A DNA stretch of 64,000 nucleotides from Polyangia bacterium (lineage in GTDB: Bacteria > Myxococcota_A > Polyangia > Nannocystales > Nannocystaceae). The notes beneath the pieces were generated by a model. That model had not been told where the DNA came from, did no database searches, and worked only from the letters and a program-made list of their open reading frames with translations. A program made the position numbers and the translations under genes. Location: contig JAUHWG010000005.1 in the NCBI GenBank assembly GCA_030424595.1, forward strand, positions 124,001 to 188,000. The letters are read 5' to 3'. This document shows, piece after piece, positions 3,612 to 17,943 of this stretch. Within the stretch, counting starts at the first letter, position 1. Each line of letters opens with the position of its first letter.

Positions 3612-3638
3612 GAGCGGAGTCCCCGTGAGAACGAAGAA

Positions 3639-3663
3639 GCCGGCGCTCCCTCGGGAGGCCGGC
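3639..3663. terminator. Bidirectional terminator hairpin between ykgJ-like gene and rpoD
   Basis: Arms GCCGGC at 3639-3644 and 3658-3663 enclose a second stem, CTCC/GGAG, with loop CTCG. C/T-rich sequence follows on the plus strand (CTCTCTGTCTCTTC) and CTTCTTCGTTCTC on the minus strand. It fills the space between two convergent stops, so it can serve both transcripts. Confidence 0.75.
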
Positions 3664-3697
3664 CTCTCTGTCTCTTCGCGGGGTCGGAGTCGGGGGA

Positions 3698-5473
<1,776 letters not shown>

Positions 5474-13785: not shown

Positions 13786-15039
13786 ATGAGCGCTCGAACC
13801 CTGGGCCCCGACGATCTCCAAGCGCCGCGCCCGATCTATGTGGTCTGGGAGACTACGCTGCGCTGCGATCACGCCTGCGCCCACTGTGGTTCGCGGGCAG
13901 GCCCCTCCGCCCGCGACGATGAGCTGAGCACGGAGGAGCTCCTCGAGGTCGCCGACTCGCTGATCCGCCTGGGCTCCCGCGAGGTCACCCTGATCGGCGG
14001 CGAGGCCTACCTCCGCGGCGACTGCTATCGGCTCATCGAGCACCTGACCGCCGGCGGCGTGCGGGTGACGATGCAGACAGGCGGGCGAGGGCTGACGCCG
14101 AACCGGATCCGTCGCCTCCGCGACGCAGGGCTCGCGGCGGTCGGCGTCTCCGTCGACGGCCTCGAGACCAGCCACGACCAGCTCCGGGCGAGCCCGGGGA
14201 GCTGGCGGGCGGCGATGGAGGCGATCCGCAACGCCCGCGCGATCGGCATGACCGTGACCTCCAATTCGCAGATCAACCGGGTCAACAAGGACGAGCTGCC
14301 GGCGACGGCCGCCGCCCTCCGAGACGCGGGGGTCGCGGTCTGGCGGGCGCAGCTCACCGCGCCGATGGGACGGGCCGCCGATCGCCCCGAGTGGATCCTA
14401 GAGCCCTACATGATCCTCGAGGTGATCGACACGCTCGCCGAGATCCAGCGCTGGGCGCTCGCCGAGGCCGAGCGGGCCGGGACTCCGAGCTCGCGGGCCT
14501 TCCACGTTCGCCTCGGCAACAACGTCGGCTACTACGGCCCGCACGAGCTGCTCCTGCGCTCAAGGCCAGGTCAGGCCGAGGCCCACTGGCAGGGCTGCTC
14601 CGCCGGGAAATTCGTCATGGGGCTGGAGTCGGACGGGACGATCAAGGGCTGCCCATCGCTGCCGACAGGGCCCTACACCGGCGGCAACATCCGCGACGCC
14701 GACATCACCCAGGTGTGGGCCGAGGCCGAGGCGATCACCTTCGCGAGAACCCGCGGCACCAGCGAGCTGTGGGGCTTTTGCAAGTCCTGCTACTACGCCG
14801 AGGTCTGCCGCGGCGGCTGCTCCTTCACCGCCCACAGCACCCTCGGCCGCCGCGGCAACAACCCCTTTTGCTACTACCGGGCGAGCAAGCTCAGGCGTCA
14901 GGGGCTCCGCGAGACGCTGGTCAAGCGGGTCGCGGCTCCGGGGGCTCCCTACGACTTCGGTCGCTTTGAGATCGAGGTCGAGCCCTGGTCCGACGAAGCG
15001 CCCGCGCCCGCGCCGAAGCGCCTGCCGGTGATCGCCTGA
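13786..15039 (+). CDS. Radical SAM/SPASM peptide-maturase-like enzyme
   Basis: 417 residues. The radical SAM cluster motif is C27-xxx-C31-xx-C34 (LRCDHACAHC), followed by GGEAYLRGD and the barrel. The C-terminal SPASM domain has the full seven-cysteine set: C271, C289, C332, C335, C341, C345 and C362, the spacing that binds two extra 4Fe-4S clusters. SPASM enzymes of this size (PqqE, AnSME, RiPP maturases) oxidise or crosslink residues in a peptide or protein substrate. No RiPP-recognition domain is obvious at the N-terminus. Its convergent neighbour 154 bases away encodes a lipoprotein with five YGVP repeats, a possible substrate. AGGAGG lies 14 bases before the ATG, rather far. Enzyme class is firm; substrate is inference. 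Confidence 0.93.
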   Translation: MSARTLGPDDLQAPRPIYVVWETTLRCDHACAHCGSRAGPSARDDELSTEELLEVADSLIRLGSREVTLIGGEAYLRGDCYRLIEHLTAGGVRVTMQTGGRGLTPNRIRRLRDAGLAAVGVSVDGLETSHDQLRASPGSWRAAMEAIRNARAIGMTVTSNSQINRVNKDELPATAAALRDAGVAVWRAQLTAPMGRAADRPEWILEPYMILEVIDTLAEIQRWALAEAERAGTPSSRAFHVRLGNNVGYYGPHELLLRSRPGQAEAHWQGCSAGKFVMGLESDGTIKGCPSLPTGPYTGGNIRDADITQVWAEAEAITFARTRGTSELWGFCKSCYYAEVCRGGCSFTAHSTLGRRGNNPFCYYRASKLRRQGLRETLVKRVAAPGAPYDFGRFEIEVEPWSDEAPAPAPKRLPVIA

Positions 15040-15067
15040 GCGGGGGAGGGCGAGCCCCCGCTCAGGC
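15034..15067 (+). terminator. 13-bp perfect hairpin overlapping the radical SAM stop codon
   Basis: Arms GCCTGAGCGGGGG (15034-15046) and CCCCCGCTCAGGC (15055-15067) with an 8-base loop. The TGA stop is inside the left arm. No U-tract follows, so it may be a factor-aided terminator or an mRNA-stabilising end. Confidence 0.65.
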
Positions 15068-15113
15068 CTTCGCCGCAGGCGATCCGCCGACGGTGGAGCC
15101 TGTGAATTTGTAC

Positions 15114-15153
15114 GGGCCCGCTCCTCGTCGCGGGATCGCGGAGGAGAGGGCCC
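15114..15153. terminator. Second hairpin between the convergent SPASM and YGVP-lipoprotein genes
   Basis: GGGCCC-G-CTCCTC (15114-15126) pairs with GAGGAG-A-GGGCCC (15141-15153) around a 14-base loop, with one mismatch in the stem. It lies 40 bases past the stop of the minus-strand lipoprotein gene and can end either transcript. Confidence 0.55.
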
Positions 15154-15193
15154 GGGAGAGCGCAGCCCGCAGGCAGTCGCTCGTCGCCGCGGC

Positions 15194-15706
15194 TCAGGCG
15201 GTGTCCGGGACGCCGTAGTCCGGCTCCGGATCGGTCGTCGTGTCGGGCACTCCGTACTCCGGCTCACCGGTGACCGTCGAGCCCTCCGTGGTCGGCACCC
15301 CGTACTCTGGCTCGGCGGTCGTCGTCGGCACCCCGTAGTCCGGCTCGATCGTCGTCGAGCCCGTGGTCCCGGTGCTCCCCGTCGCGGTGCCGGTGCCGGC
15401 GGTGGACGAGCTGCCCTCCGAGTCGGTCCCGCTCGTCGCGTCCGTCGCCGACGCCGACGCCGACGCCGACTCCGACGCGGACGCCTCCGTCGCCGGGACC
15501 CCGTACTCCGGCTCGGGGTCGTCCTTGCCGTTGCAGCTCGCGAGGGCGAGGCCCATCAACACGGCCGCAGCCGCACGACCGACAGCGCCGCCGGTAGTCC
15601 CGAGGGTCGTGTCACAGTGGGGACAGACCGATTCGTTCGACTTCACATGCTCCTGGCATGAGGGGCAGGCGACCAAGCGGGTAATGGGGAGCAACGGGGG
15701 AGCCAT
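15194..15706 (-). CDS. Zinc-ribbon/lipobox protein with five YGVP repeats; possible radical SAM substrate
   Basis: 170 residues from ATG 15706, which has GGGGA six bases upstream; ATG 15718 is possible. Residues 14-31 form a CPSC...CPHC zinc ribbon. A hydrophobic run (RAAAAVLMGLALASC) ends in a lipobox-like LASC with Cys58. One EPEYGVP follows at 66-71, then a Ser/Ala/Thr-rich spacer, then four more copies near the C-terminus (EPDYGVP, EPEYGVP, EPEYGVP, EPDYGVP), the last three residues from the end. The consensus is P-[ED]-Y-G-V-P. A repeated short motif behind a leader-like region, beside a SPASM enzyme, is what a multi-core modified peptide looks like. Equally it may just be a lipoprotein with a repetitive tail. 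A zinc ribbon before a lipobox is itself odd. Confidence 0.75.
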   Translation of the reverse strand: MAPPLLPITRLVACPSCQEHVKSNESVCPHCDTTLGTTGGAVGRAAAAVLMGLALASCNGKDDPEPEYGVPATEASASESASASASATDATSGTDSEGSSSTAGTGTATGSTGTTGSTTIEPDYGVPTTTAEPEYGVPTTEGSTVTGEPEYGVPDTTTDPEPDYGVPDTA

Positions 15707-15954: not shown

Positions 15955-17943
15955 CTACGCGTAGAGGCGGAGCCAGACCTCGAGGGTGATCAGCGCCCAG
16001 AGCTTGGGGGCGTGGTCGCGAGCGCCCCGCTGATGCTCATCCCAGAGCCGCTCGACCGCCCGCGGCTCGAGGATCCCGCGGCTCGCGAGCGCCCGCGGAT
16101 CGAGCCAGGTCTCGCGGATCCGCTTGGCGTTCGCCGGGCGCTTCATCCAGGCGCCGAAGGGAGCGTTGAAGCCGAGCTTGCGCCGCGCGGTGACCTCAGG
16201 CGGCAGCCTCGGGCCGACGATCGTCTTCAGCAGGCGCTTGCTCGCGAGGGGGCCGACCTTGTGACGCGAGGGGACGCGGGCCATCACCTCGACCAGGCGG
16301 TGGTCGCAAAAGGGCACCCGCACCTCAACGCCGTGGGCCATGCTCATCCGATCCGAGCTGCGGAGGACGTTCTCGGGGAGAAACCCGTGGAGGTCGGCGT
16401 AGGTCGAGCGGCTGACCAAGTCCCCCTGCGCGGGTCGAGCGAAGGCGTCGACGACCGGCGTGATACGGCCCTCTGTGGCCACTCGAGCGCGAAATTCAGG
16501 GGTCAGGAGCGCGTCGCGCTCGGCGGGGGTGAAGTAGCCCACCCAGCCCGCGTAGCGGTCGGCGGCGGGGAGGCGAGCACCGTCGACAAAGCTCCGCGCC
16601 CAGCGACGATAGGAGCGGGCGACCGCGGGCTCCCCCGCCGCCGCGAGGGCCCGGCTCGCGAGGCCGAGCCCCCACCTCGGCGCCCGCCCGGCGAGGCCCG
16701 AGAGGAGCATCCCGCGATAGCGCGGGTAGCCGCCGAAGACCTCGTCGCCTCCATCCCCGGCGACCGCCACCTTGACGTGTCCGCGGGTGAAACGACAGAG
16801 GTGCCAGCTCAGGAGCGCCGCCCAGGAGCCGAAGGGCTCGTCAAAGCCGCGGACGACCGCCTCTAGGTCGTCGAGGATCCGGACGTCCAGCTCGATCTCA
16901 TGGTGCTCTGTCGCGAAGGCTTGGGCCACCCGCCGGGCGAAGGCGCGCTCGTCGTAGCTCTGCCCGTCGACGTCGTAGCCGACGCAGACCGTGGTCAGCG
17001 GTCGGCTCGAGCGAGCCGCCATCACGCCGACGATCGTCGACGAGTCGACCCCCCCGGAGAGGAAGGCGCCGACCGGGACATCGGCGACCATACGGTCTCG
17101 GATCGCGCTGTCGAGGATCGGCGCGACGATCTCGGCCCACTCCTGATGGGAGCGGCCACCCTCCGGCGCGGGAGGAGCGTCCCAGGTCTGCTCGACCTCG
17201 GCCTGACCCTTTGACCATGTTAGCCGATGACCCGGCGGGAGCTGGCGGATCCCGCGGAAGATCGACAGCGGCGGCGGCACATAGAATAGGCCGAGGTAGG
17301 CGTCGAGCGCCGCGGCTGAGGGCTCGCGGTCGACCGCCGGCAGGAGGAGCAGGGCCTTCGGCTCCGACGCGAAGGCGAGGCTCGGCGCCCCCTCTCCCCG
17401 CGGACCGCGGGGCAGGATCGCGTAGTAGAGCGGCTTGACGCCCACGCGATCGCGGTGGAGCGTGAGCTCCCGACGGCGCCGGTCCCAGAGCCCGATCGCG
17501 TACATGCCGACGAAGCGATCGACCGCCTCCAGGCCCCAGCGCTCGAAGGCCGCGAGGATCACCGCGGTGTCCGACGAGTCGAGCAGGCGAGCGCCCTGCT
17601 GCTCCAGCTCCGCGCGCAGCTCTCGGTAGTTGTAGAGCTCACCGTTGTAGGTGATGACAAAGCGTCCGCTCGCCGAGGTCATCGGCTGGGCCCCGCCGTC
17701 CAGGCCGATGATCGCGAGGCGACGGTGGCCGAGCGCCACCTCCCCCTCGCTCACCGACGTCGACGTCGATCTCGACCGGACGACGGCCTCGTCGTCGTGA
17801 TCCTGATCCTGATCCTCATCCTCTAGAAGGCCAGCGTCGACAAAGATCCCCTCGCTGTCAGGACCGCGGTGGACGAGCGCGCGCGTCATCGCCAGGACGA
17901 GCCCGCGGTCCCCCTCGCCGACGATCCCCGCAATTCCGCACAT
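15955..17943 (-). CDS. asnB: Asparagine synthase (glutamine-hydrolysing)
   Basis: 662 residues. The glutaminase domain starts MCGIAGIVG with nucleophile Cys2, and contains ALGHRRLAIIGLDGGAQPM and YNGELYNYRELR. The synthetase domain has the ATP PP-loop FLSGGVDSSTIVG near residue 300, and VAVAGDGGDEVFGGYPRYRG. It transfers ammonia from glutamine to aspartate or another carboxylate; asnB-type enzymes beside methyltransferase and flippase genes often act in surface-polysaccharide or secondary pathways. A 25-residue acidic insert near residue 40-65 (LLEDEDQDQDHDDE), coded by a short DNA repeat, breaks the usual HRGPDSEG to ALGHRR spacing and is peculiar to this copy. Confidence 0.94.
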   Translation of the reverse strand: MCGIAGIVGEGDRGLVLAMTRALVHRGPDSEGIFVDAGLLEDEDQDQDHDDEAVVRSRSTSTSVSEGEVALGHRRLAIIGLDGGAQPMTSASGRFVITYNGELYNYRELRAELEQQGARLLDSSDTAVILAAFERWGLEAVDRFVGMYAIGLWDRRRRELTLHRDRVGVKPLYYAILPRGPRGEGAPSLAFASEPKALLLLPAVDREPSAAALDAYLGLFYVPPPLSIFRGIRQLPPGHRLTWSKGQAEVEQTWDAPPAPEGGRSHQEWAEIVAPILDSAIRDRMVADVPVGAFLSGGVDSSTIVGVMAARSSRPLTTVCVGYDVDGQSYDERAFARRVAQAFATEHHEIELDVRILDDLEAVVRGFDEPFGSWAALLSWHLCRFTRGHVKVAVAGDGGDEVFGGYPRYRGMLLSGLAGRAPRWGLGLASRALAAAGEPAVARSYRRWARSFVDGARLPAADRYAGWVGYFTPAERDALLTPEFRARVATEGRITPVVDAFARPAQGDLVSRSTYADLHGFLPENVLRSSDRMSMAHGVEVRVPFCDHRLVEVMARVPSRHKVGPLASKRLLKTIVGPRLPPEVTARRKLGFNAPFGAWMKRPANAKRIRETWLDPRALASRGILEPRAVERLWDEHQRGARDHAPKLWALITLEVWLRLYA

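Follow-up and report, generated by a model that had tools for sequence, protein, structure and literature searches.

The radical SAM/SPASM enzyme P0002 and the zinc-ribbon lipoprotein P0001, encoded by neighbouring genes in a Polyangia bacterium (Nannocystaceae; assembly GCA_030424595.1), constitute one member of a large Myxococcota system that is also present in Nannocystis, Enhygromyxa and other members of the phylum, and P0002 is likely to be a splicease-type enzyme with the lipoprotein as its substrate. The pairing of the genes, the architecture of the proteins, the conservation of the motif and the family relationship were shown; the chemistry, docking, order of steps and function are inferred and were not shown. 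Positions refer to the window, meaning the whole 64,000-nucleotide stretch analysed (contig JAUHWG010000005.1, forward strand, 124,001 to 188,000).

Enzyme gene and family assignment

P0002 (417 residues; 13786..15039, plus strand) matched the Pfam families Radical_SAM and SPASM. The CxxxCxxC motif of the radical SAM cluster (C27, C31 and C34; 13864..13887, plus strand) and the seven SPASM cysteines (C271, C289, C332, C335, C341, C345 and C362; 14596..14871, plus strand) were all retained across 38 homologues. The AF2 model had a pLDDT of 92.4 and its closest folds were the SPASM peptide maturases SkfB, PqqE, SuiB and anSME. No solved splicease was present among the PDB sequence or structure matches to P0002, the sequence search returning distant SPASM enzymes only.

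The characterised splicease PlpX (subclass IPR026482), together with its partner PlpY, excises tyramine from Xaa-Tyr-Gly to leave an alpha-keto amide (PMC11002830), with a mass loss of 135.0757 Da at the XYG site and no requirement for a RiPP leader (PMC10533398), and splicease products have been described as protease inhibitors (PMC11117315, PMC10373908). P0002 scored 438 bits against TIGR04103, which is taken here to be the same family as IPR026482, and 428 bits against TIGR03913, and because both scores fall below the cut-offs (a curated 725 and 592, respectively) it cannot be counted fully in either family. Its identity to a protein annotated as nif11-class peptide maturase 3 on a Nostoc plasmid is 46%, and the precursor of the Nostoc enzyme has the C-terminus ALYGLPPELF. 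P0002 was not filed as a TIGR04103 member, but it belongs to the PlpX "splicease" superfamily, its excision activity being inferred from the family relationship and the shared site. It lacks the C-terminal zinc ribbon that is a trait of GDL-motif (TIGR03913) enzymes and has no DUF1843 substrate. No candidate for a PlpY-like small open reading frame was seen near P0002, an absence that carries little weight because the Nostoc PlpY candidate itself has no Pfam match.

The two genes are convergent and lie 154 bases apart. One inverted repeat spans the stop codon of the enzyme gene (15026..15075; 21-nt arms, 86% complementary) and a second lies within the intergenic region (15113..15154; 14-nt arms, 93% complementary), and RNA folding of this region gave z = -3.7. 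The two hairpins reported by the first-pass annotation held as strong inverted repeats; its statement that the genes are controlled separately rests on their convergent geometry only, since no terminator with a T run was found between them. On its other side the lipoprotein gene adjoins a gene for a 662-residue protein resembling glutamine-hydrolysing asparagine synthase (15955-17943).

The lipoprotein and its tyrosine sites

P0001 comprises 170 residues plus stop (15194..15706, minus strand; coding part 15197-15706, stop codon 15194-15196) and is the predicted substrate. Its zinc ribbon, CPSCQEHVKSNESVCPHC (CX2C-x10-CX2C, residues 14-31; 15614..15667, minus strand), gave weak matches to Pfam DZR and Zn_ribbon_3, its four cysteines were invariant among 34 aligned partners, and it is predicted to serve as a docking leader, taking the place of a Nif11 or NHLP leader. 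A hydrophobic segment ending in the lipobox LASC (Cys58) follows at 15533..15577 (minus strand). The lipoprotein criterion of a hydrophobic segment closed by a lipobox cysteine is met, and that of a short n-region is not, since about 40 residues including the zinc ribbon precede the segment; lipidation and cleavage by signal peptidase II are accordingly predictions from the sequence.

The predicted mature protein has 113 residues and is rich in Thr, Ser and Gly. It carries PEYGVP at residues 66-71 (15494..15511), PDYGVP at 122-127 (15326..15343), PEYGVP at 133-138 (15293..15310) and 149-154 (15245..15262) and PDYGVP at 162-167 (15206..15223), all on the minus strand and four of the five near the C-terminus. 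Every one of the five tyrosines of P0001 lies inside a P[ED]YGVP copy. Two YGVP copies never arose in 20,000 shuffles of the mature part and synonymous codons vary between the copies, so that a chance repeat or a simple duplication of DNA was ruled out. The seven-cysteine SPASM enzyme, the 154-base gap and the 170-residue protein with zinc ribbon, lipobox and five repeats clustered mainly at the C-terminus had all been described in the first-pass annotation, and every checkable detail held, the repeats by residue position.

Recurrence of the enzyme-lipoprotein pair

Homologues of P0002 (E <= 1e-30) were present in 70 of 98 related genomes, Nannocystis exedens and Enhygromyxa salina included, often with several per genome, the window's own genome of 9.5 Mb having seven. 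The neighbourhoods of about 100 homologues were screened for open reading frames combining a zinc ribbon, a hydrophobic segment, a cysteine and Tyr-[Gly/Ala]. Such a partner was found within 3.5 kb in at least 65 of 85 enzyme loci (enzymes scoring >= 300 bits against P0002), a lower bound because some true partners escape a regular-expression search, and at none of 15 outgroup loci with lower-scoring SPASM enzymes of the same class; no recognised partner lay near the remaining 20 homologues, and P0001 was the only partner-type frame among the 863 of the window. The partners share an N-terminal zinc ribbon, a hydrophobic segment, a lipobox cysteine and then X-Tyr-[Gly/Ala]-x-Pro sites. A cysteine closed the hydrophobic segment in 79 of 79 partners, the lipobox not having been a selection rule, and all 132 YG dipeptides of the neighbour set lay after this cysteine, none before it. 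Partners of the orthologues nearest P0002, as in Nannocystis, carry PEYGVP/PDYGVP three to five times, and those of other clades carry ACYGAP, KKYGAP, VTYGGP, SDYGGP, PLYGPV, AFYGGC, TYAGP or SFYAGP. Constant across partners are the tyrosine and a small residue at +1, with Pro frequent at +3; X and the linkers vary.

Because the neighbour search had itself selected for tyrosine sites, a profile was built from the part between zinc ribbon and lipobox only, without the tyrosine region (alignment A1), and the same genomes were searched with it. Among 150 matches, 89 were no more than 5 kb from an enzyme, against an expectation of less than 1% given the share of the sequence that is this close in the genomes checked. 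At matches distant from any enzyme, 48 of the 50 proteins examined had Tyr-[Gly/Ala/Ser] after the cysteine (Tyr-Gly in 36). The same profile returned only weak, ordinary zinc-ribbon proteins from 28 enzyme-free genomes, none with both lipobox and site.

These searches bear on the claim of the first-pass annotation that the Tyr of YGVP is modified by the enzyme in a membrane-anchored protein. Recurrence of YGVP-type proteins beside enzyme homologues came out in favour of it. Four close orthologues (L049, L050, L052 and L053) have no partner beside them and might have spoken against it as enzymes lacking a YGVP protein, but they occur in genomes that contain the same partners elsewhere, tandem arrays included, and the opposite exception, a true partner in a genome lacking the enzyme, was absent from the 28 enzyme-free genomes. 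The claim thus has strong support from comparative genomics; modification remains unproven, as there is no mass spectrometry. A likely PlpX-type excision of tyramine, that is, an edit of the backbone, and a leader role for the zinc ribbon, with its later removal, go beyond what had been claimed.

Tandem arrays of four (L177; G014:C43:81600-84500) and five (L178; G018:C185:14300-17132) zinc-ribbon YG lipoproteins were observed far from any enzyme gene, which implies action in trans. A paralogue in the window's own genome (L119, contig C14) had no recognised partner.

Enzyme phylogeny and variation of the site

Phylogenetic analysis of 110 enzymes grouped those of the Nif11 type, of the GDL type and of the zinc-ribbon lipoproteins in a single clade, separate from other SPASM enzymes. 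This splicease-type clade (98 rows, SH-aLRT 100) includes the annotated TIGR04103 enzyme. Residue X follows the enzyme clade (CYG, FY[GA], TY[AG] and D/EYG) and among paralogous pairs is Glu/Asp, Cys, Lys, Leu, Thr, Phe or Ala.

Several variants were noted besides. The lipobox cysteine is itself residue X in the ACYG clade (L055, L065, L067, L072 and several of L256-L299), so that a ketoamide would there sit on the lipidated residue, and two partners of this clade have a Cu-binding_MopE motif after the site. Ala replaces Gly after Tyr in TYAGP and SFYAGP repeats (L100, L104, L106, L113, L195 and L196); these clades would test whether spliceases accept Tyr-Ala. Larger partners (L076, L080, L084, L099, L107 and L109) place one FYGGC-type site between a low-complexity stalk and a Cys-rich region containing a GEKCMPW motif, and the one examined for Pfam domains, that of L080, matched none.

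Position of the zinc ribbon

Across 80 named loci the ribbon was on the substrate in 54 and on the enzyme in 9, and on both in none found. Ribbon-fused enzymes were encoded at loci from Azospirillum, Aureibacter, Pseudomonas, Paraburkholderia, Streptomyces, Chromobacterium and Pyrinomonadaceae, and in Tropicibacter the ribbon is at the N-terminus of the enzyme. The enzyme-fused ribbon (e.g. LCRACNQYIWPHETECPHCGADV) closely resembles that of the substrates, and the simplest reading, an inference, is that it is a docking module able to sit on either partner. The GDL-motif maturases (TIGR03913), which act with DUF1843 peptides, fall in the same enzyme clade as P0002 and share XYG/XYA sites and a similar ribbon; unlike P0002 and P0001, they have the ribbon on the C-terminus of the enzyme rather than on the substrate, and their substrates, short helical peptides, have no lipobox. 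Where DUF1843 peptides were seen beside ribbon-fused enzymes they carried PYGPA, LYGVG, LYGGP, MYAVS or PMYAAS, which makes DUF1843 a probable substrate of spliceases. No function has yet been assigned to a solved DUF1842-DUF1843 protein (PMC10994174), and the present system suggests a candidate role. DUF1843 (PF08898) peptides with XYG/XYA were observed at L218, L220, L263, L266, L285, L287 and L298.

On the substrate the ribbon precedes the signal sequence, and signal peptidase II would therefore remove it as a leader. If this removal does take place, the ribbon is unlikely to have a metal-binding role in the mature product.

Proposed pathway and alternative explanations

In the proposed pathway, the N-terminal zinc ribbon of the precursor would dock on the enzyme in the cytoplasm, where the tyrosine sites would be edited by excision of tyramine to give ketoamides, and the precursor would be exported only afterwards. 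Lgt would then lipidate Cys58 and signal peptidase II would cut before it, taking off the zinc-ribbon leader. The predicted outcome is a lipoprotein anchored in the membrane, its Thr/Ser/Gly-rich stalk bearing as many as five ketoamides. Given the kind of enzyme and the recurrence of the pairing in dozens of relatives, reactive backbone-edited proteins are probably present on the surface. They would likely serve to trap, reversibly and from a tethered position, proteases with a P1 preference matching X, paralogous pairs offering different X; this rests on analogy, and the variety of X and its tracking of the enzyme clades fit P1 specificity without proving it.

A bolder form of this reading combines all of these elements: myxobacterial surface lipoproteins edited by spliceases, with the ribbon leader placed before the signal sequence, each pair producing ketoamide warheads of a different P1 that act as tethered protease inhibitors, and the ribbon a portable docking module. 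Taken as a whole it must be regarded as tentative, with the balance slightly against it. If true, backbone editing by spliceases would extend from short RiPP peptides to membrane lipoproteins of Myxococcota. The system also offers a direct test of a leader placed before a signal sequence and suggests enzyme-substrate recognition without PlpY, by a zinc ribbon on either partner, and natural lipoproteins with multiple ketoamides would be useful for protein labelling and work on protease inhibitors.

Against the splicease reading stand the score of P0002 below the TIGR04103 cut-off (725), the failure to see a PlpY-like gene, the absence of biochemical or mass data, the occurrence in some clades of Tyr-Ala or Tyr-Ser, dipeptides outside the known range of PlpX, and the 20 of 85 loci without a partner.

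The alternative that survives best leaves the editing in place and assigns the ketoamides another use, either covalent attachment to amines of matrix or prey or the binding of metal. Ketoamides are reactive and the Cu-binding_MopE motif follows the site in some CYG-clade partners; the diversity of X between paralogous pairs is in keeping with P1-type specificity, although this is only suggestive, and such a use is possible but judged less likely than not.

A different chemistry at the same tyrosines (a cyclophane or ether crosslink, a change at the beta-carbon or epimerisation), with a product other than a ketoamide, is considered unlikely. SPASM peptide maturases do catalyse many reactions, the structural model comes close in fold to SkfB, SuiB and the epimerase EpeE, P0002 scores below the TIGR04103 cut-off and Tyr-Ala variants exist. 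Among characterised enzymes, however, spliceases are the closest to P0002 and they share the X-Tyr-Gly site, and no partner residue is conserved besides the small one at +1 and the frequent Pro at +3. A three-residue Tyr cyclophane in particular is disfavoured, as it needs a beta-carbon two residues on and YGGP and YAGP have no side chain at that position.

There is likewise little to favour the ribbon being a functional cytoplasmic domain that escapes signal peptidase II and stays attached, the lipobox-like cysteine being coincidental. The part before the hydrophobic segment (approximately 35-40 residues) does exceed the usual n-region of a signal peptide, but a cysteine ends that segment in every partner without having been selected for, and in the CYG clade the tyrosine site comes directly after it.

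Least credible is a lipoprotein that is no substrate at all, with repeats that are structural or serve in binding (e.g. to a surface partner) and an incidental or regulatory pairing: the low-complexity linkers do recall many surface stalks and direct evidence of modification is absent, but many paralogous enzyme clades show the pairing and no outgroup enzyme does, tyrosine sites persist in the distant members (48/50) and partners are missing where the enzyme is missing.

Comparison with known systems

DAG-RiPPs, which are MNIO-modified lipoproteins (bioRxiv 2025, PMC12636315), likewise have a RiPP-type enzyme editing a lipoprotein precursor before lipoprotein maturation. The MNIO criterion is not met by P0002, a radical SAM/SPASM enzyme, and DAG-RiPPs are argued to be leader-independent (PMC12636315), whereas P0001-type precursors have a leader before the signal sequence. 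TIGR04133 and TIGR04134 similarly pair, by name, a SPASM enzyme model with a lipoprotein family; they were rejected as the family of the present pair, as P0002 scored 149.7 bits against a cut-off of 425 and P0001 did not match TIGR04134, for which a search of the window's own genome gave one weak unrelated match. Ribosomal beta-amino acid peptides and proteins are treated by Scott et al. (2022; Chem, 10.1016/j.chempr.2022.09.017), who are reported to survey splicease products, proteins included, possibly with myxobacterial examples. No account linking YGxP lipoproteins, TIGR04133 or spliceases with myxobacteria was found in the literature searched, which excluded that paper. Spliceases and lipoprotein-RiPP hybrids are each known; as far as the accessible literature shows, what is new is their combination with a zinc-ribbon leader across the phylum, some cases of which Scott et al. 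may already list.

The PlpX/PlpY spliceotides belong with P0002 to one enzyme superfamily and share its X-Tyr-Gly sites, of which a precursor may hold several. They differ in that the substrate of P0002 is a zinc-ribbon lipoprotein and not a Nif11 or NHLP peptide, that P0002 falls below the family cut-off and no PlpY-like gene was seen near it, and that some clades have Tyr-Ala sites. Short spliceotide-like precursors with LYGVP or LYGLP were found at a paralogue in the window's own genome and at the Nostoc locus. The former enzyme (G000:C29) scored 552 bits against TIGR04103 and adjoins a short RiPP-like precursor ending CPMPLYGVPMPAEL, so that one organism has both the classical and the lipoprotein form, their sites being almost identical. 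At this locus (L116, G000:C29:398383-407540) the paralogous enzyme and short precursor occupy 3618-5329; several SPASM cysteines of the enzyme are missing (WSGSTAG, KADPSL, CRGGD) and CxxxCxxC is kept, and a possible HlyD-like export gene follows.
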